DNA of 21,339 bases from a virus. The position numbers and the translations under genes are program-made. Shown piece after piece: positions 1 to 5,954 of this stretch; position 1 is the first letter of the stretch, and each line of letters opens with the position of its first letter. A model generated the notes under the pieces. That model searched no databases and was not told the DNA's origin. It worked only from the letters and a program-made list of their open reading frames with translations. Where the stretch lies: positions 1 to 21,339 of IMG/VR virus record IMGVR_UViG_3300037089_000269, one strand, 5' to 3'.

Positions 1-199
1 GATTCTCCGGCCAGGGCTGGGCCGGCTCAACTCGGTAGCCCTTCTGAATCCACGTCCGGCGCGGGATATGCGGGCAGGCCGGCGCCGTGACGGGTGGATC
101 CGAATACCTACAGGCCGCGACGTGGGCAGCGCGCCGGTAGGTCCCGTAGATCGTGGTGGACTCGACGGGATGGCCGCTCAAGGTGATCTGGAAGCTCAC
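1..199 (-). CDS. Hypothetical protein, second gene of minus-strand operon (3' end outside window)
   Basis: The gene starts at a GTG (199-197 on the minus strand) that overlaps the TGA of the upstream gene as GTGA, the same coupling used throughout this phage. A GGAGG Shine-Dalgarno sequence (211-207) lies 7 nt upstream, inside the preceding gene. The frame stays open for 66 codons to the left edge, so the C-terminus is not seen. The visible N-terminus starts VSFQITLSGHP and continues with a basic, Arg/Pro-rich segment with two Cys. I do not recognise a family. Small early accessory phage protein is an inference from its position only. Confidence 0.55.
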   Translation of the reverse strand, partial: MSFQITLSGHPVESTTIYGTYRRAAHVAACRYSDPPVTAPACPHIPRRTWIQKGYRVEPAQPWPEN

Positions 200-540
200 G
201 GCTGGACCTCCCCGGTAGCTCTGGCGATGGCGGCGCGGGCCGCAGTTTCGGCGGCATTGGCGGCTTTCGTGTTGTCGTCCTCGCCCCAATGCTTATGGAC
301 GAAGGCGCACTCTTTGAGGACCGCTTGCAAAGCCGCAAGAAGATCGGGGCTCGCGGCTATGAGGCGGGCGTTGGCCATGGCCGAACCCTGGAAGTCATGG
401 ACGCTGATGTTGTTGGCTATCCAATGCCCGTCAGCGGCTTGCACGGATGCGGGGTGAGAAACCCAGGACCCGCGCTTGCTGAATTTATATGGCTCGACTT
501 TCCACGGCCCCTTCGTGTGCTGCGCGTTCTTGGTTTTCAT
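196..540 (-). CDS. Small conserved early phage protein (HT-GPW / NARLIAASPDLL family)
   Basis: The protein has 114 residues and starts at ATG 540 behind a GGAG Shine-Dalgarno sequence (550-547). It carries the two signatures of a very common small phage family of unknown function: an N-terminal HTKGPWKVEP and a central NARLIAASPDLLAAL, followed by a helical, Ala-rich tail. Such proteins normally lie in early accessory clusters of siphophages and prophages; their biochemical role is not known. It is the first gene of the minus-strand operon, expressed from the promoter at 667-695 through a structured leader of about 120 nt, and is translationally coupled to the next gene by GTGA. The family signature is strong; no function can be assigned. 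Confidence 0.85.
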   Translation of the reverse strand: MKTKNAQHTKGPWKVEPYKFSKRGSWVSHPASVQAADGHWIANNISVHDFQGSAMANARLIAASPDLLAALQAVLKECAFVHKHWGEDDNTKAANAAETAARAAIARATGEVQP

Positions 541-660
541 GTTCTACTCCTGCCCCATAAAAAAGGGGCGCACCATTTCCCGGCTCTCCCAAGCTAGGTT
601 GGATGATGCGCCCGAAGTCGGATTCGTCGTCGGGTTTCTTCCGGCTGCTTGGGAGAGCAT
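541..660 (-). promoter_or_regulatory. Structured 5' leader of the minus-strand operon: P1 stem, P2 helix in pseudoknot register, U6 tract
   Basis: Transcription from the promoter at 667-695 should start near 660. On the minus strand, 658-647 is perfectly complementary to 594-583 (12 bp, P1). Inside the P1 loop, 613-603 can pair with 576-566 downstream of P1 (11 bp, P2), with one G-U wobble (573/606) that exists only in the minus-strand RNA. P2 is followed at once by six U (564-559), so P2 plus the U-tract resembles an intrinsic terminator placed just before the Shine-Dalgarno sequence (550-547) and ATG (540). GAAG (641-638) and CUUC (617-614) could add a small helix in the loop. Attenuation or antitermination is an inference. 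Confidence 0.65.
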
Positions 661-666
661 GGTTAG

Positions 667-695
667 ATTGTAACAGATGAGTGACGGCCTGTCAA
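667..695 (-). promoter_or_regulatory. Sigma70-type promoter, minus strand (early operon 1)
   Basis: Read on the minus strand there is a perfect -35 TTGACA (695-690), a 17-nt spacer and a -10 TACAAT (672-667, five of six consensus positions). The predicted start site is near 660, exactly at the base of the leader stem. It points at the two minus-strand genes at 540 and 199. Confidence 0.85.
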
Positions 696-879
696 GTGCT
701 ATTTTCCCGGAAATGCCCGCTATTTTCATACCCCCCTTTCGAGACAATTCCTCGACGGCCTCAGACGGTGGAAACGTGATAGAACGCATTTCCTCGTCGA
801 GAATCAAGGGGCATAGCTATGGCTGCTTCGCTCCTGGGTCAACGTCGAACCGTTTTTATCGACGAGAAACGCGAGGGGA
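696..879. promoter_or_regulatory. Divergent control region between the two early promoters, with repeated operator-like motifs
   Basis: This region separates the two -35 boxes. It contains a 9-bp direct repeat GCTATTTTC at 698-706 and 719-727 (21 bp apart, two helical turns) directly abutting the minus-strand -35 box. It also has four copies of the hexamer TCGACG in either orientation: 752-757 (+), 795-800 (-), 843-848 (-) and 859-864 (+). A short CGTTT/AAACG dyad (851-855 / 867-871) flanks the last copy. These are candidate binding sites for a regulator not encoded in this window. Apart from a possible 41-codon reading frame starting at 819, nothing here looks coding. Confidence 0.45.
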
Positions 880-944
880 TTGACATTAAGGAAGAATGGG
901 TGTATGATTTCTATGTCACTTGGCAAAGCGACAAGAAGAAATGA
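819..944 (+). CDS. Possible 41-residue protein overlapping the early promoter
   Basis: ATG 819 opens a 41-codon frame ending at TGA 942-944. A weak AAGGGG-like ribosome-binding sequence lies about 8 nt upstream. The product has a protein-like middle (for example IDIKEEWVYDFYVTW) and a basic KKK end, with no family I can name. The frame fully contains the near-consensus promoter at 880-908 and the 5' strand of the leader stem (917-935). If that promoter is real, this frame is either an accident of the AT-richer promoter DNA or is expressed from another, unseen promoter. I cannot decide between these from sequence alone. Confidence 0.35.
   Translation: MAASLLGQRRTVFIDEKREGIDIKEEWVYDFYVTWQSDKKK
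880..908 (+). promoter_or_regulatory. Sigma70-type promoter, plus strand (early operon 2)
   Basis: A perfect -35 TTGACA (880-885), a 17-nt spacer and a -10 TATGAT (903-908, five of six consensus positions) predict a start site near 915. That is the base of the leader stem at 917. It mirrors the minus-strand promoter at 667-695 in strength and spacing and would drive the genes from 1041 onward. Confidence 0.75.
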
Positions 945-1040
945 AAAGCCACCTTCGCCTCACCCCGGACTTGTCGCGTGTCTCTGCCAAGTGGCGCCTG
1001 CCGAGATCCCGGGGTGGGGCCTATTTTATAGGAGGACTCC
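915..1040 (+). promoter_or_regulatory. Structured 5' leader of the plus-strand operon: two-part P1 stem and 12-bp P2 helix in pseudoknot register
   Basis: P1 consists of 917-925 with 985-993 (9 bp) and 928-935 with 970-977 (8 bp), separated by a small internal loop. In the P1 loop, 957-968 pairs with 1009-1020 downstream (12 bp, P2), with one U-G wobble (960/1017) allowed only in the plus-strand RNA. GAAGAAA (935-941) and CUUC (953-956) occupy the same loop positions as in the minus-strand leader. P2 is followed by UAUUUUAU (1022-1029), then the AGGAGG Shine-Dalgarno sequence (1030-1035) and ATG 1041. The layout is compatible with an attenuator, a cis-acting antiterminator or a translational control element; which one is not shown by the sequence. 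Confidence 0.65.
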
Positions 1041-1358
1041 ATGATCGACATGAACGGTGAACGGATACACAGAGCACAGCATACTGAGTGTTTCTATTTC
1101 TGGCCGCCGGACAAGCCCCACATGGACAGCCACTTCGGCTACTGCCGGCTCACAAGTCATTATCTTGAAGATCACATTCCGACAAAGAATGAGAAATCTT
1201 TAGGGCTCGATCATGGGCCCAGGGATGCGAGTCCGTGCTCGATGTTCTTCCCGGAAAAGAAAGCCAGGGAAATGGTGGAGAGGGCTCGGCTCGGGCTGCA
1301 GAGCATCGAGGTTATAATGTCGGGAATCCCGACATCGCCGCGGCGCCGGATATTTTAA
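1041..1358 (+). CDS. Hypothetical early protein, 105 aa
   Basis: The gene starts at ATG 1041 with a strong GGAGG (1031-1035) 5 nt upstream. The protein is 105 residues, rich in His, Cys, Tyr and Phe in its first 40 residues (Cys17, His27, His31, Cys35, His40) and ends in a basic RRRIF. The Cys/His spacing could allow metal binding but does not match a finger I can name. It is the first gene after the structured plus-strand leader and is followed by the replication gene after 10 nt. Its last 15 codons contain a TATAAT and a perfect dyad (1313-1334) that may regulate the next gene. I do not recognise the family. Confidence 0.7.
   Translation: MIDMNGERIHRAQHTECFYFWPPDKPHMDSHFGYCRLTSHYLEDHIPTKNEKSLGLDHGPRDASPCSMFFPEKKAREMVERARLGLQSIEVIMSGIPTSPRRRIF
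1313..1334 (+). promoter_or_regulatory. TATAAT -10 box overlapping a perfect 17-bp dyad (operator-like)
   Basis: A perfect TATAAT lies at 1313-1318. Its last T is the first base of the dyad TGTCGGGA-A-TCCCGACA (1318-1334), perfectly symmetric about 1326. A transcript from here would start near 1325 and reach the replication gene ATG (1369) in about 45 nt. No good -35 box is found 16-18 nt upstream, so activation or a chance match is possible. The same bases could also form a small RNA hairpin. Confidence 0.4.
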
Positions 1359-1368
1359 GGAGAGACAT

Positions 1369-2508
1369 ATGAGCATGACTGACATCAACATCGACCGAGG
1401 CTACCCCGCGCACCGAAAGACCAAGAGGCTCTTGGGGCTCTGCGGCCCAGAGGCGGATATCTACCCGATCAGGCTATGGTGCTACTGTGCCCTATACCAC
1501 GCCGCGGACGGGAAAATGGTGGACTACTCGCCAGCCGAGGTTGAGGCTGCGGTCGGGTGGAGAGGGGAAACTGGCGTTCTCCTGGCAGGACTCCTGAAGG
1601 TTGGGTTCTTGGAGTCTTTGAATTCGGGGCAGACTGGGTACGCTTGCCATGATTGGATAGAGTACGAAAGCCATATTTCAAAGTTCGCGGCCAAGGGAAA
1701 GGCTATGAATGACGCCAAATATGGTAGGACTTCATCTCCTGTAAGGACTACTAACAGTACTCCTGACAGGACTACTGCAAGGAATCCCCTACCTAACCTA
1801 CCTATACTACCTACCGAAGGGGTCCCTTCGATTGGAGTAGAGTCTGAAACGAAAACAAAAACACCCCCCACGCAAAGTATTATAATAGGGCCAGTCAAGC
1901 CTGCCACAGCAGGCGCCAATCGGTTCGGAGATCGTATGCCGGAAGGCTGGCCTGAGCAGTTAGGCACCTGCATTTGGAGGGGACCGCTACTCATTATCGA
2001 TCCCAAACAGGTGCTGCCACGATTCGACTTGTGGTCAGATGCCAAGCATACTCCCGAGCAATCACCTGTCCCGGTTCCGCCATCTGGAAGAAAGTGGGAA
2101 TGGAGTTCCTCCACCATGTGTTGGTTGTCCTCTATGCTACACGATAACCGGGATTGGGTGTGCGGTATACCGAAGAAAGAGTGGGAGATATTGCAGGCGC
2201 GCGGGATATTCGAAAGGCAACGCGAGCTCCAGCAGGAATATGATGCCGAGGATAATTTGGAAGTTGCTCGGCAGTTGTGGTACAGAGAGGACGACCGCCG
2301 CACCAAGATCCGCGAGGACGCCAACGGGACCACCAAGCGCAACCAGGACGCCATGGACGCAGCGGAGAAAGAGAGATGGGCGAAACTCAAGGCCGACGAC
2401 GAGGCACGACGAGCCGACATACAGAAGGCAGCACACAAGACCGCGCCTTCAAGGCCAGTCGCTCATGGCAAAGCAAAGCCGGACAGCCATAGGAAGTTCT
2501 TCAAGTGA
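1369..2508 (+). CDS. Phage replication initiator / replisome-organizer-like protein
   Basis: The protein has 379 residues; ATG 1369 follows an AAGGAGAG ribosome-binding site. Residues 1-115 resemble the N-terminal winged-helix type domain found in phage replication proteins, with the characteristic RGYPAHRKTKRLLGLCGPEA start, then YPIRLWCYCALYHA and a GWRGETGVLLAGLLKVGFLE segment. Such proteins bind the phage origin and recruit replication machinery. A low-complexity linker (about residues 118-185) contains RT-x and LP-x repeats encoded by DNA repeats that may form the origin. The C-terminal third (from about residue 270) is highly charged and probably coiled coil, ending in a basic tail. The C-terminal half does not match anything I know. 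Assignment as replication protein rests on the N-terminus and its early position before the packaging genes. Confidence 0.6.
   Translation: MSMTDINIDRGYPAHRKTKRLLGLCGPEADIYPIRLWCYCALYHAADGKMVDYSPAEVEAAVGWRGETGVLLAGLLKVGFLESLNSGQTGYACHDWIEYESHISKFAAKGKAMNDAKYGRTSSPVRTTNSTPDRTTARNPLPNLPILPTEGVPSIGVESETKTKTPPTQSIIIGPVKPATAGANRFGDRMPEGWPEQLGTCIWRGPLLIIDPKQVLPRFDLWSDAKHTPEQSPVPVPPSGRKWEWSSSTMCWLSSMLHDNRDWVCGIPKKEWEILQARGIFERQRELQQEYDAEDNLEVARQLWYREDDRRTKIREDANGTTKRNQDAMDAAEKERWAKLKADDEARRADIQKAAHKTAPSRPVAHGKAKPDSHRKFFK
1726..1888 (+). repeat. Iteron-like repeats plus AT-rich tract inside the replication gene (candidate origin)
   Basis: AGGACT-starting units occur at 1726, 1744 and 1768 (AGGACTACT exact at 1744-1752 and 1768-1776), each of the first two followed by CTCCTG (1736-1741, 1760-1765). 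Next come three tandem 9-bp units CTACCTNNN at 1789-1815, a fourth CTACC copy at 1811-1815, and then an A/T-rich stretch around 1841-1888. This layout (repeats followed by AT-rich DNA within an initiator gene) is that of the lambda ori in gene O. Function here is inferred. Confidence 0.4.
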
Positions 2509-2666
2509 AAGACCTGGCCGCCAATCAGAGCGAGTCAAAGTTCCGCGAGCAATGCCGTGACGAGCTCATTCCCGGTTGCCCGCACTGCCTATACAAGCTG
2601 CCACCGTTTGGGAAGTGGGTCCGGGCGCCGGCTCCTCCAGAGGCTCGGCACCGAAGTCATGCGTAA
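2505..2666 (+). pseudogene. Truncated gene head, possibly of a VRR-NUC/resolvase-type nuclease (53 aa)
   Basis: GTG 2505 overlaps the TGA of the replication gene (GTGA), so initiation is probably genuine. The product begins MKDLAANQSESKF and contains CRDELIPGCPHC then YKLPPFGKW; this resembles the start of small phage nucleases of the VRR-NUC kind, though the similarity is from memory and weak. It stops after 53 codons at 2664-2666, well short of any nuclease core, and no catalytic motif is present. From about 2620 the DNA instead encodes, in the +1 frame, the tail of a nucleotide kinase. I read this as the 5' remnant left by a deletion that joined two genes out of frame; it might still be translated as a short peptide. 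Confidence 0.45.
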
Positions 2667-2928
2667 GCGCGACCCGGACTACTGGGTGAAGGCGTGGATA
2701 ATCAAGGCCGAAGAAGCGCGCAAAGCTGGCTTCAACGTGTGCGTGGCGGACTGCCGGTTCAGGAACGAAGCCGAAGTCATACTGGCGAACGGAGGCGAAC
2801 TGGTGTTTTGCGATTATCACTCAAACCGTTACGACGCCGGGCAGGCACATGAGTCCGAACACCTGGCACAGCGCATGCTAGCGCTGGGGCTCAAGGACGG
2901 CGACGCGGTCATGGCGGGCCTGCTGTGA
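2557..2928 (+). pseudogene. C-terminal part of a deoxynucleoside monophosphate kinase-like protein, P-loop missing
   Basis: From about 2626 the frame encodes RRLLQRLGTEVMR, DPDYWVKAW, VADCRFRNEAEVI and AHESEHL, which match the second half of phage dNMP kinases (the LGTE, DVRFxNE-type and HxSE segments). Those enzymes phosphorylate dNMPs for phage DNA synthesis and are usually about 200 residues with an N-terminal P-loop. Here the P-loop half is absent: upstream sequence belongs to a different gene in another frame, and the first in-frame ATG (2557) yields residues unrelated to a kinase N-terminus. The gene overlaps the next one by GTGA at its 3' end, as an intact operon member would. I think it is a decayed remnant and catalytically dead; a short expressed fragment cannot be excluded. 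Confidence 0.55.
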
Positions 2929-3188
2929 GCGTCCGCGTCGCCCGCTTCGAACAGCTCGCCGGAATAATCGGTCCGCGCCTCACCGAGTGCGTGTGCGCCC
3001 TGCTCCACGGCAAGCGCATCACCATCGGCAAGAAGGAGTGCTGCGCCCGCGCGGAGTACGCCAAGCGCCGCAGGCAGTACGACCGCATGAAGGCCAAGCA
3101 GGCGGCTACGGCCCTGGGCTGCACCGTGCGGTACTACCTGGCGCTCAAGGCGTCGGCGAGGCTGCTGGACGTGCGCAACGACCCATAG
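2925..3188 (+). CDS. Small HTH-type DNA-binding protein
   Basis: GTG 2925 overlaps the previous TGA. The 87-residue product is basic, with a Cys pair (Cys39-Cys40), a positively charged helix around residues 42-58 (ARAEYAKRRRQYDRMKAKQ) and a segment at about 57-78 (KQAATALGCTVRYYLALKAS) that fits a helix-turn-helix. Similar small proteins occur in the stretch between replication and terminase genes of siphophages; a regulatory role, for example in late transcription or packaging, is a guess from position. It ends at TAG 3186-3188, and the following zinc-finger reading frame begins at the same place. Confidence 0.6.
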   Translation: MSVRVARFEQLAGIIGPRLTECVCALLHGKRITIGKKECCARAEYAKRRRQYDRMKAKQAATALGCTVRYYLALKASARLLDVRNDP

Positions 3189-3213
3189 GGCGGCCTGCCG
3201 GGCCAAGTGCCAG

Positions 3214-3357
3214 GTGTGCGGCAAGCGCATCCTCGAAGGTGAGTCCGCGGTGCTCGCCCGAGGCTACATGTCTGAGGGGCAGGCCCACCTGGACTGCCTC
3301 AAGCGGGCCGCCATCCGCGCGGCCATGGACGCCAAGCCGGAAGTGGAGGTCATATAA
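3214..3357 (+). CDS. Small zinc-finger protein (CxxC...HxxC), start codon apparently lost
   Basis: The frame is open from 3091 to TAA 3355-3357 and its protein-like part starts near 3187: two closely spaced Cys, then CQVCGKRILEGE, a 24-residue middle and HLDCLKRA. The CxxC and HxxC pairs resemble one CCHC treble-clef finger of the PARP-finger kind, probably DNA or RNA binding. There is no ATG, GTG or TTG upstream in frame; GTG 3214 is the first but cuts through the CxxC motif. The junction reads CCATAGGG where an ATGAGG-type overlap start would be expected, so loss of one G could explain the missing ATG. This is either a mutation or an assembly error. Confidence 0.45.
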   Translation: MCGKRILEGESAVLARGYMSEGQAHLDCLKRAAIRAAMDAKPEVEVI

Positions 3358-3358
3358 C

Positions 3359-3444
3359 ATGTACACCGTGACGAACTACCGGAGCCGCACCGCTGGTACG
3401 CCGAAGCCGTGGTCAAGGACGGCATCGTAGTCTCGGTCAAGTAG
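3359..3444 (+). pseudogene. Frameshifted mini-gene (about 27 codons)
   Basis: ATG 3359 begins MYTVTNYR but this frame then runs into unlikely sequence and stops at 3428-3430. In the neighbouring frame, which is open to TAG 3442-3444, the DNA encodes EPHRWYAEAVVKDGIVVSVK, which looks like a genuine protein C-terminus (alternating beta pattern, charged turn). One missing base around 3380 would join the two parts into a single peptide of about 28 residues. This is inference from composition; no family is recognised. Confidence 0.3.
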
Positions 3445-3456
3445 CTCGGCCAGTAC

Positions 3457-3517
3457 GGGCCCACGCTCGCGCCAGGTGGGCCCTCCCTCTGCCTGGGGGG
3501 TGTTGCCCCACCTGGCG
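3457..3517 (+). repeat. Two mutually exclusive hairpins sharing one strand
   Basis: Stem A: 3457-3464 with 3476-3483 (8 bp, 11-nt loop). Stem B: 3470-3480 with 3507-3517 (11 bp). They share 3476-3480 and so compete. Neither is followed by a U-tract, so a simple intrinsic terminator is not supported. Stem B is the longer of the two and could help end upstream transcription or protect a 3' end. Confidence 0.5.
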
Positions 3518-3520
3518 GCG

Positions 3521-3532
3521 TGGCGCGCGCCA
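3521..3532. repeat. 12-bp perfect palindrome of alternating GC
   Basis: The sequence TGGCGCGCGCCA is its own reverse complement. It follows hairpin B by 3 bp. It may be a protein site or a by-product of high GC; no function can be claimed. Confidence 0.5.
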
Positions 3533-3640
3533 TATCGCATCGTCGTGCGGAATGGGCGGTATTTAGAGCGTCATGTTATCTTGTACCAAATTCAACAACT
3601 AGACGATTCAGGCTGATTCATGTACACTACCCGTACCAAT

Positions 3641-3744
3641 GGGCGCCGCGGGCTTCAGACCGTGCCGGGTCCTACCAAGAGCGACTTCGTCGCTGATGCC
3701 ATATGGCAACGAGGGTCATGTTCGGTCTGAAGCGCGCGGCGTTC
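3641..3744 (+). ncRNA. Long-stem multibranch element abutting the small terminase gene (candidate structured RNA or packaging site)
   Basis: 3645-3662 pairs with 3723-3740 (17 of 18, one G-G mismatch). As plus-strand RNA the stem extends outward by 3641-3644 with 3741-3744 (G-C, two G-U, C-G) to about 22 bp. The 60-nt interior contains a perfect 6-bp hairpin 3680-3685 / 3689-3694 with loop TTC and a palindrome TGCCATATGGCA (3697-3708) that can form a 4-bp hairpin. The stem ends 4 nt before GTG 3749 and 13 nt before ATG 3758, where no Shine-Dalgarno sequence is evident. It could be a terminase recognition site in DNA, a regulator of terminase translation, or a small RNA. Confidence 0.45.
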
Positions 3745-3748
3745 TGCT

Positions 3749-4150
3749 GTGACAGTCATGGCACAGGGACCGAACAAGCGCCGCAACAAACTCCAGCCGT
3801 TATGGACGATACATAAAAAGGCTTCCTTCCTCAAAGCCTTCAAGAAACTCGGCGGCGTTTACATCGCCTGCAACGCCGTCAGCATCAACCCGTCCACGGT
3901 TCAAACCTGGCGCGAACAGGACCCGGCCTTCGCGGCCGAGTACCTGGCGGCAAAGGAAGCGGACACCGAAGAGCTTGAGAAGCGCGCCCGCTTCCGCGCC
4001 ATGAAGCGCAGTGACATCCTCATGATGTTCCTGCTCAACGGCCGGCGGCCGGAGATGTACAGGCAGAACGCCAAGGTGACGCACGCCGGCGGCATCACGG
4101 TGCGCGACCTCCTGGTCGACGACGACCCGCCGGCCAAGGGCGCCAAGTGA
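3749..4150 (+). CDS. terS: Terminase small subunit
   Basis: The protein has about 130 residues. GTG 3749 gives 133 aa; ATG 3758 gives 130 aa and is equally plausible, since neither has a clear Shine-Dalgarno sequence. An N-terminal basic segment is followed by a helix-turn-helix around residues 22-54 (KAFKKLGGVYIACNAVSI then STVQTWREQDP), then an acidic helical EADTEELEKRARFRAM part and MMFLLNGRRPEMYR. This arrangement (HTH, DPxF-type boundary, then the FLLNGRRPExYR segment) is that of phage terminase small subunits, which bind cos/pac DNA and recruit the large subunit. The gene lies two genes before the large subunit and just after an inverted-repeat element that may be its target. The 3' end overlaps the next gene by GTGA. 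Confidence 0.88.
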   Translation: MTVMAQGPNKRRNKLQPLWTIHKKASFLKAFKKLGGVYIACNAVSINPSTVQTWREQDPAFAAEYLAAKEADTEELEKRARFRAMKRSDILMMFLLNGRRPEMYRQNAKVTHAGGITVRDLLVDDDPPAKGAK

Positions 4151-4317
4151 ACGAGCTCACCCCCATCGTGGTGCCGGCGCCCGGCTTCGCCTGCCAGTGC
4201 GGCGCCTCCCATTCCCTGATACGCCGGCCGCCCTATCCCTTCGACCTGTGCCCCAACTGCGGCACGGCCCTGCACCGTGAGCCGTATGTGAACGTCCTCG
4301 GGAGCGGACTGCAATAA
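4147..4317 (+). CDS. Zinc-ribbon mini-protein between terminase genes (56 aa)
   Basis: GTG 4147 overlaps the small terminase TGA, and the TAA (4315-4317) overlaps the large terminase ATG as TAATG, so this frame is tightly embedded in the packaging operon. The 56-residue product has CQCG (Cys16, Cys18) and CPNCG (Cys35, Cys38), a CxC-x16-CxxC arrangement typical of a one-zinc ribbon. No other domain is present. Embedding between the terminase subunits suggests a role in packaging or late control, but this is only context. It is too short for many gene finders, yet the double overlap and cysteine pattern make it convincing. Confidence 0.75.
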   Translation: MNELTPIVVPAPGFACQCGASHSLIRRPPYPFDLCPNCGTALHREPYVNVLGSGLQ

Positions 4318-5954
4318 TGCCCTGGCAACCCTGCAACACCGAGGCGGCCAAGGGCGTCCAACTCAAGGGCGCCGTGCTGCGGGACAGGATAGGCGAGAAG
4401 CCCGAGTGGGCCATGAAGCGCATCCTGGCCCAGAAGCCCTGGGACAAGCAGGTTGAGATAGCTAAGGCGGTCTTCCTCCACCCGCGCGTCGAAGTGTCCG
4501 GCTGCGTGAGCTCGACCAAGACCTATTGCGCGGCGATGGTCGCCTTGCTCTGGCTCATGCGCTGGGGCCGCGGCTCCCGCGTGTTCAGCATCGCCCCTTC
4601 CTTCCGGCAGGTGGACACGAACCTCTGGGGATACCTCCCCCGCCTGGTGGCGGCCGCCGAGCGCAACGGGACGCCGCTCGGGTGCCGTGTGTTCAAGGAG
4701 CCGCGCATCGAGTTCGGCGACGACTGGTACTACGAGGGGTTCAGCACCGACAAGCCCGGCAACGTCCACGGCATCCACGGCGACCATGACCTGCTCATCG
4801 TCGACGACTGGCAGGGCGTGGACAAGGCGCTCATGGAGGAGCTGGACAACATGACGGCCGGCGGCGCCTGCCACTTCCTGTGCCTCCATAACAGGGTGGT
4901 GCTGTCCGGGCCTTCCTACGACTGCGCACACAAGGACGCCGCACTCTGGCACCACATCAGCATCAGCTTCTGGGACATGCCGAACAGCGACCCCAAGAGG
5001 GCCGACGAGCACATCCCCGGCGCCCTGTGCCTGCAGACCGTGGACTTCTGGAAGCGCAAGTACGGCGCCAAGTCGAACTTCTACCGGAACAAGGTCGACA
5101 ACGAGTACCCGACAGCCGCGCCGGACACGCTCATCCCGCTGGACTGGGTGGAGCTGGCGTTCGCCCGCAAGGCCACGGACCAGGGGCCGCTGATGCTCGG
5201 GGGGGACGTCGCCCGCTTCGGCGACGACTCCTCGGCCAAGGCCCGCATGCGGGGCAGGTCAGTGCAGATGGTCACATCATGGTCCAAGTACGACCTCATG
5301 CACACCGCGGGCGAGTTCGCCCAGGACCTGCGCGCCGAGACGGCGCCGGACCCGAAGAGCGGCGTGCGCCGCTCTGCCTTCGCCTTCCTGGACGTGGTGG
5401 GGATGGGCGGTGGGCCGGTGGACCGCCTGGTGGAGCAGCGCATCCCCAACGCGACCATCGTCGGCGTGGACTGCGGCGAGAAGGCCGAGGGCATGGCGCT
5501 GCGCGGGGACAAGTGGGTCCCGGCCCACGAGGTGTTCGTCAACAAGCGCTCTCAGATGTGGTGGAACCTCCGCGAGCGCCTGGACCCGTCGGCCACCGAC
5601 CAGGCCAAGCTCATCAGCCTCCCCGTCGACCTGGAGCTCCAGGCGCAGCTGACATGCGTGCGCTACCGGCTGGCCAGCGACGGCCGCATCGAGGTGGAGC
5701 CCAAGCACTCTAGCGCCACGAACGGCGGGAAGAAGTGGGGCCTCAAGAACCGCCTCGGCTACAGCCCGGACAAGGGCGACGCCGTGGTGGTGGTGGTGTG
5801 GGGCGCGGACACCTGCGTGCGGGGCGAGGTCATGACCCAGGGCCACGAGGCCAAGCCGCAGACGATGGCCCAGGCCGTGTCCTCGGACTTCCCGGTCGCC
5901 ACGGCCTGCGGGTCTGGCGACGACGGATACATGGACGGCACGGAGCGCGCATGA
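4317..5954 (+). CDS. terL: Terminase large subunit (packaging ATPase/nuclease)
   Basis: The protein has 545 residues and starts at ATG 4317. It powers DNA translocation into the prohead and cuts the concatemer. The ATPase part holds a Walker A-like VSGCVSSTKTY (residues 60-70; the usual second Gly before Lys is Thr) and a Walker B-like DLLIVDD (158-164; the usual catalytic Glu is Asp). SGPSYD near 197-202 may be motif III. The RNase H-like nuclease has the expected three acidic positions in GGDVARFGDD (Asp297), FLDVVGMGGG (Asp359) and DKGDAVV (Asp488). Full length for the family. It overlaps the portal gene by ATGA. The atypical Walker residues may be a family variant rather than inactivation, since both motifs keep Lys/Thr and two carboxylates. 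Confidence 0.93.
   Translation: MPWQPCNTEAAKGVQLKGAVLRDRIGEKPEWAMKRILAQKPWDKQVEIAKAVFLHPRVEVSGCVSSTKTYCAAMVALLWLMRWGRGSRVFSIAPSFRQVDTNLWGYLPRLVAAAERNGTPLGCRVFKEPRIEFGDDWYYEGFSTDKPGNVHGIHGDHDLLIVDDWQGVDKALMEELDNMTAGGACHFLCLHNRVVLSGPSYDCAHKDAALWHHISISFWDMPNSDPKRADEHIPGALCLQTVDFWKRKYGAKSNFYRNKVDNEYPTAAPDTLIPLDWVELAFARKATDQGPLMLGGDVARFGDDSSAKARMRGRSVQMVTSWSKYDLMHTAGEFAQDLRAETAPDPKSGVRRSAFAFLDVVGMGGGPVDRLVEQRIPNATIVGVDCGEKAEGMALRGDKWVPAHEVFVNKRSQMWWNLRERLDPSATDQAKLISLPVDLELQAQLTCVRYRLASDGRIEVEPKHSSATNGGKKWGLKNRLGYSPDKGDAVVVVVWGADTCVRGEVMTQGHEAKPQTMAQAVSSDFPVATACGSGDDGYMDGTERA

Follow-up and report, generated by a model that had tools for sequence, protein, structure and literature searches.

Cis-acting RNA control of early phage transcription is represented, to our knowledge, by very few cases, chiefly the put RNAs of HK022, which bind the zinc-binding domain of the RNA polymerase beta' subunit and suppress distant terminators. 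Bacterial attenuators have a 5' leader with an early helix, a later GC-rich helix and then a U-tract, and HDV-like ribozymes have a 7-bp P1, a P3 hairpin and a catalytic C at the start of J4/2. The put RNA of HK022 is about 70 nt long and is described as a pair of adjoining stem-loops with a short triplex, without a pseudoknot, and putR is located about 270 nt downstream of its transcription start (PMC9378689). In the T4 gene 32 leader an H-type pseudoknot is followed by A+U-rich sequence ahead of the ribosome site (PMC3014915).

The locus described here lies in a linear viral record of IMG/VR (IMGVR_UViG_3300037089_000269), the 21,339 bases of which were analysed as a whole and are called the window; the record is probably a fragment. 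Portal, head morphogenesis, capsid E, tail tube and terminase-type proteins are encoded in it and, judged by these proteins, the virus is an undescribed tailed phage that infects bacteria. A single long frame at 5735-8299 matches both the portal and the head morphogenesis families, which suggests a fused portal/head morphogenesis protein. Among the GenBank phages the terminase has only distant relatives (23-29% identity in the best matches listed), and a search via the terminase found no relatives in GTDB genomes. Two terminase relatives, L004 and L005, have structural genes in common with the window. The early region of L004, the best other relative (65% terminase), is different and carries repressor-like and integrase-like genes, as read from the translations, while L005 is too short for an early-region comparison. 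The early genes, promoters and leaders of the window are the following.

196-540, minus strand: first leftward gene, 114 aa, phrog_1273 (unknown function); its body is swapped behind the same leader in L003, a near-identical copy
1041-1358, plus strand: first rightward gene, 105 aa; the near-identical copy is the sole relative found
1369-2508, plus strand: second rightward gene, replication initiator-like (phrog_9474)
695-667, minus strand: leftward early promoter, TTGACA-17-TACAAT with TG ahead of the -10, 11 of 12 matches
880-908, plus strand: rightward early promoter, TTGACA-17-TATGAT, 11 of 12 matches
541-660, minus strand: leftward leader RNA, about 120 nt, predicted start 660, placed from the -10
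914-1040, plus strand: rightward leader RNA, about 126 nt, predicted start 914-915, placed from the -10

The two divergent promoters are found where the original prediction had placed them and are the two best in 1-4400 by a sigma-70-like match score; the start sites 660 and 914-915 are predictions from the -10 box. Between the promoters there are operator-like repeats (WTTYCTCGWCG and its inverse) at 745-757, 787-799 and 856-870. Repeats of this type have 8 matches in the window where 2.7 are expected with one mismatch allowed, and 4 of the 8 fall inside 747-870; they are possible repressor sites controlling both promoters. A 19-bp near-perfect palindrome, ATGTCGGGAATCCCGACAT, could also be observed at 1317-1335, late in the first rightward gene and just ahead of the replication-initiator gene.

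Both early leaders contain two helices, P1 and P2, the strands of which are complementary in the interleaved order of an H-type pseudoknot. Their parts are listed below.

658-647, minus strand: minus P1, 5' strand, 12 bp, from the helix search
594-583, minus strand: minus P1, 3' strand, 12 bp, from the helix search
613-603, minus strand: minus P2, 5' strand, 11 bp, from the helix search
576-566, minus strand: minus P2, 3' strand, 11 bp, from the helix search
614-617, minus strand: minus CUUC, complementary to GAAG and abutting P2, read from the sequence
559-564, minus strand: minus U6 run, one base 3' of P2
650-635, minus strand: common motif AAGCNNCNNGAAGAAA, 16 bases after the -10, with GAAGAAA at 641-635
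914-925, plus strand: plus P1, 5' strand, 12 bp including two U-G pairs
985-996, plus strand: plus P1, 3' strand, 12 bp including two U-G pairs
928-935, plus strand: inner extension of plus P1, 5' strand, 8 bp
970-977, plus strand: inner extension of plus P1, 3' strand, 8 bp
957-968, plus strand: plus P2, 5' strand, 12 bp, from the helix search
1009-1020, plus strand: plus P2, 3' strand, 12 bp, from the helix search
953-956, plus strand: plus CUUC, abutting P2, read from the sequence
1022-1029, plus strand: plus U-rich run UAUUUUAU, 3' of P2
926-941, plus strand: common motif AAGCNNCNNGAAGAAA, 17 bases after the -10, with GAAGAAA at 935-941

The presence of such a leader pair is thereby confirmed, with the predicted lengths (about 120-126 nt), pseudoknot register and helix positions, and with P2 helices of 11 bp (minus) and 12 bp (plus) as claimed. 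The 12 bp given for the minus P1 are correct as well, while the plus P1, which had been described as 9+8 bp, is in fact a 12-bp helix with two U-G pairs plus the inner 8 bp. The one strand-specific G-U wobble ascribed to each P2 is there, and the plus P1 adds two more of which the claim made no mention. After both folds the expected U-rich run is followed by a good Shine-Dalgarno sequence and an ATG start codon. The 16-nt motif AAGCNNCNNGAAGAAA occurs in both leaders and nowhere else in the window (0.07 expected, with at most one mismatch). Its GAAG is complementary to the CUUC, which directly adjoins the 5' strand of P2 in both leaders, and GAAG and CUUC could possibly form a short third helix. 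As judged from AAGCNNCNNGAAGAAA at a matching promoter distance and from the CUUC abutting P2, the minus and plus leaders are related to each other. Between them 9 of the 12 P1 pairs and 7 of the 11 P2 pairs are changed on both sides yet still paired, a comparison of two loci and not formal covariation among homologues.

In both window leaders a GC-rich helix is followed directly by a U-tract, as in an intrinsic terminator. The richest 8-base window starting at most 2 bases from P2 holds 7 T in the minus and 6 in the plus leader, the background for at least 5 being 2% in this genome. The minus U-run was also considered as a slippery site for -1 frameshifting and dropped, the frame being wrong and the pseudoknot lying upstream of the run. 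The leaders resemble the bacterial attenuators in having an early helix, a later GC-rich helix and a U-tract in a 5' leader; they differ in that their helices interleave as a pseudoknot and have no pairing strand in common. With the HDV-like ribozymes, including the phage theta ribozymes, they share the order P1 5', P2 5', P1 3', P2 3' near the RNA 5' end. This identity was rejected: P1 is 12 bp in the window leaders and 12-13 bp in three leaders against 7 bp, the P3 hairpin is missing, and the one match of the CPEB3 model, in the leader of another phage (L264, below), scores 15.5 bits, under the gathering score of 35, with none in the window. No Rfam 15 covariance model matched at its gathering score, and none matched up to E 5 in 530-1060, which is consistent with the earlier statement that no described motif has this layout.

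The HK022 put RNAs had been named as the known parallel. The likeness lies in a cis-acting RNA present in both divergent early transcripts, with a possible effect on elongation. The fold is unlike, since the window leaders have 120-126 nt and interleaved P1 and P2 whereas put has adjacent stem-loops in about 70 nt (PMC9378689), and identity with put is ruled out by this. The parallel survives as a functional analogy only; the earlier placement of put at the start of both transcripts is wrong for putR, which lies about 270 nt away (PMC9378689). By the same analogy, the folded leader could act as a processive antiterminator, bound to the elongating RNA polymerase so that distant terminators are ignored in both early operons. 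The position at the start of both divergent RNAs and the common AAGCNNCNNGAAGAAA, as for a common binding partner, would agree with this, and so would the location of HK022 putL, which is likewise just downstream of its promoter (PMC9378689), and the fact that the leader is kept with the promoter as genes change. We regard this explanation as unlikely: put has no described pseudoknot (PMC9378689), and a U-tract directly 3' of P2 is not a described put part.

The strength of the folds was compared with several backgrounds, all pseudoknot energies being stacking sums with an assumed penalty range and all structures predicted. Among all interleaved helix pairs on both strands of the window the two leaders rank first and second by stacking energy, and they are the only ones at or below -48 kcal/mol among the 382 H-type candidates with a span under 125 nt. 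Dinucleotide shuffles of the leaders themselves reached -45 in 0 of 4000 cases for the minus and in 2 of 4000 for the plus leader. Shuffles of the whole window gave best values of -45 to -60 somewhere in 42 kb of GC-rich strand. Since such values are attained there, the energies alone are not exceptional, and what carries the weight is that the folds coincide with the starts predicted for the two strongest early promoters. In a first survey of 1122 sigma-70-like promoters (at least 10 of 12 matches) in 2.86 Mb of fetched viral DNA, a fold at +1 of -45 or better was found only in the two window leaders. The whole-window shuffles, and the lack of a varying homologue of the window leaders, are what speaks for chance complementarity in GC-rich DNA; against it stand the coincidence with both promoters, the local shuffles, AAGCNNCNNGAAGAAA, the promoter surveys and the compensatory changes in a second phage group described below, and chance is a very improbable explanation. 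The claim of matched structured leaders on both early transcripts is supported by position, AAGCNNCNNGAAGAAA, shuffles and promoter survey. For the minus RNA the computation favours a nested structure with P1 intact and P2 sequestered (-48.7) over the pseudoknot (about -35 to -43); for the plus RNA the nested optimum (-49.1) and the pseudoknot (-46 to -54) have similar energies.

The only other copy found of the window leaders (L001/L003) is 99.97% identical from position 507 on. L003 carries another gene body downstream of the minus leader from about codon 12 onward, with an identical leader and identical first codons, and a mosaic junction is seen within the first leftward gene at about 507 of the window and about 1509 of L003. 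Positions 5-321 of L003 hold 5.6 tandem copies of a 54-nt unit, as would a sequence that encodes a protein with 18-residue repeats. Varying homologues of the window leaders were not found by DNA in GenBank phages or through proteins in IMG/VR and phages. In pattern scans of IMG/VR and GTDB (promoter with GAAGAAA and CTTC; AAGCNNCNNGAAGAAA with CTTCG) a divergent pair with the fold was found, among the matches listed, only in L003. The pattern and survey candidates L300, L146, L142 and L061 were set aside for want of a promoter or a U-run, for an implausible position or as likely coding sequence.

The same layout could be observed in a second phage group. L264, a phage richer in AT, surfaced in the first promoter survey; its leader precedes a replication-initiator gene. 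The loci in which this leader turned up had been fetched for a different purpose, and the data had by then been inspected several times. L324, a relative of L264 with 70% identity in the replication-initiator protein, has a leader of different sequence with a P1 of 13 bp and a P2 of 19 bp, and no fold of this kind in its 31.7-kb contig is stronger. A third version stands in L323 ahead of an inserted HNH-type gene; this gene (2002-2475), HNH homing endonuclease-like as read from its translation, lies between the leader and the replication-initiator gene. phrog_9474 (replication initiation) is the family matched by the replication protein in each of L264, L324 and the window. The leaders of L264 and L323 are 84% identical, and five paired positions vary between them: four changes are compensatory, one position is unpaired in one of the sequences and none is one-sided. 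Sliding the pairing register destroys the fit, the shuffle control being weak with two sequences (33 of 500). Between L264 and L324, with the register set by hand, 16 pairs are changed on both sides. Compensatory changes in this group thus support both helices. Conservation of structure, as the original prediction put it, is upheld for the layout through these changes and not for the window leaders by a homologue of their own, their sole copy being without variation.

When the survey was widened to 11,851 promoter-like sites (2.84 Mb of viral loci), only the two window leaders and those of L324, L264 and L323 combined an energy of -35 or lower, at least 6 U in the 8 bases after P2 and a Shine-Dalgarno sequence. 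In all five the U-tract comes after P2 or at its end, and the P2 helices of L264, L323 and L324 extend beyond one A-C mismatch until they reach the foot of the U-tract, as a terminator stem does. L325 and L326, relatives of the same replication-initiator protein, have no such leader directly upstream of the initiator gene, no relatives of the initiator were found in 391 Clostridia genomes, and GenBank phages with distant initiators gave no lead.

The leader stays with the promoter and not with the gene, the first gene being swapped in L003 and an HNH gene inserted in L323. This bears on the view that the leader is a 5' stabiliser or translation element, in which the stem at +1 would protect the early mRNA and the fold, possibly with a phage protein attached to it as at T4 gene 32, would present or mask the ribosome site. 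P1 begins a few bases from the predicted +1 and both leaders end in a good ribosome site and start codon, as such an element would have it, and a pseudoknot in a phage leader has a precedent in T4 gene 32, where, as in the present leaders, an A+U-rich stretch stands before the ribosome site (PMC3014915). The T4 element belongs to one gene, which is autoregulated by its product, whereas here two divergent operons, an exchangeable first gene and helices of 11-12 bp are seen. A gene-specific operator should follow its gene, and since in both phage groups the leader is constant and the first gene is not, gene-specific translation control becomes less likely; for stability alone P2 would not be needed. 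On balance this explanation is rather doubtful, if less so than a put-like antiterminator.

A leader-peptide attenuator was weighed as well, in which ribosomes would read a frame from an ATG on or beside +1 across the whole leader as far as the next start codon, thereby opening the structures and coupling early expression to translation. Such frames exist: from ATG 660 to TAG 547-545 in the minus leader, from ATG 913 to TGA 1042-1044 in the plus leader, and from ATG 6642 of L264 to a stop just ahead of the next gene. An ATG 5-8 nt after the -10 with a coupled frame was met in only 8 of 1115 background promoters, and AAGCNNCNNGAAGAAA falls into one and the same codon frame in the minus and the plus leader. 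The pattern was noticed after the fact, and the plus ATG 913, 5 nt from the -10, is close for a start site. In L323 the frame is shifted relative to L264 and runs into the HNH gene; in L324 there is ATA for ATG and an early stop, and the fold persists. Thus the RNA fold outlives the frame, and a peptide-based mechanism is improbable.

The reading that we tentatively prefer, at somewhat less than even weight, is that both leaders control elongation in cis, close to the promoter, as conditional intrinsic terminators in the form of a pseudoknot. P1 would close upon synthesis of its 3' strand and keep the 5' strand of P2 inside its loop. As soon as the other P2 strand has emerged, P2 and the U-tract could together act as an intrinsic terminator, and a lasting P1 would hinder or delay the full P2 and so favour readthrough. 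If P1 were stabilised or opened by a phage or host factor or by ribosomes, both divergent early operons could be set together. Folding of successive prefixes gave P1 first in all four leaders tested, and in three of the four P2 overtakes it upon completion of its 3' strand. This order, together with the terminator-like P2 and U-tract, favours conditional termination with P1 opposing or timing it. In L264, L323 and L324 the full P2 has 20-27 bp and the linker left to span it only about 1-5 nt; sterically, a full P2 should therefore leave no room for P1, and the two would form a switch. The exclusivity argument is limited to these three, and in the window leaders P1 and P2 can coexist. We infer one mechanism for both phage groups on the basis of the layout and not of homology.

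Several points weigh against a conditional terminator. The loops of P2 are longer than is usual in an intrinsic terminator, the U-run of the plus leader is mediocre, and the computed optimum of the minus leader is without P2. A U-rich stretch also stands, without such a fold, ahead of the Shine-Dalgarno sequence of the next early gene (1369), and hence the U-runs may aid translation.

The fold of the five leaders is probably a new kind of RNA switch which lets early genes be read or stops them. It is nearly an even call whether these leaders represent a new class of phage early-promoter RNA, that is, pseudoknotted conditional terminators or antiterminators at +1, found in unrelated phages with entirely different helix sequences, ahead of replication operons and, in one phage, as a matched divergent pair. 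If this is true, a second architecture, found by layout and not by sequence, would mean that early cis-RNA control is commoner and has been missed by sequence searches, and the leaders would offer a well-defined terminator, open to experiment, whose gate is a pseudoknot made by the earliest transcribed bases.
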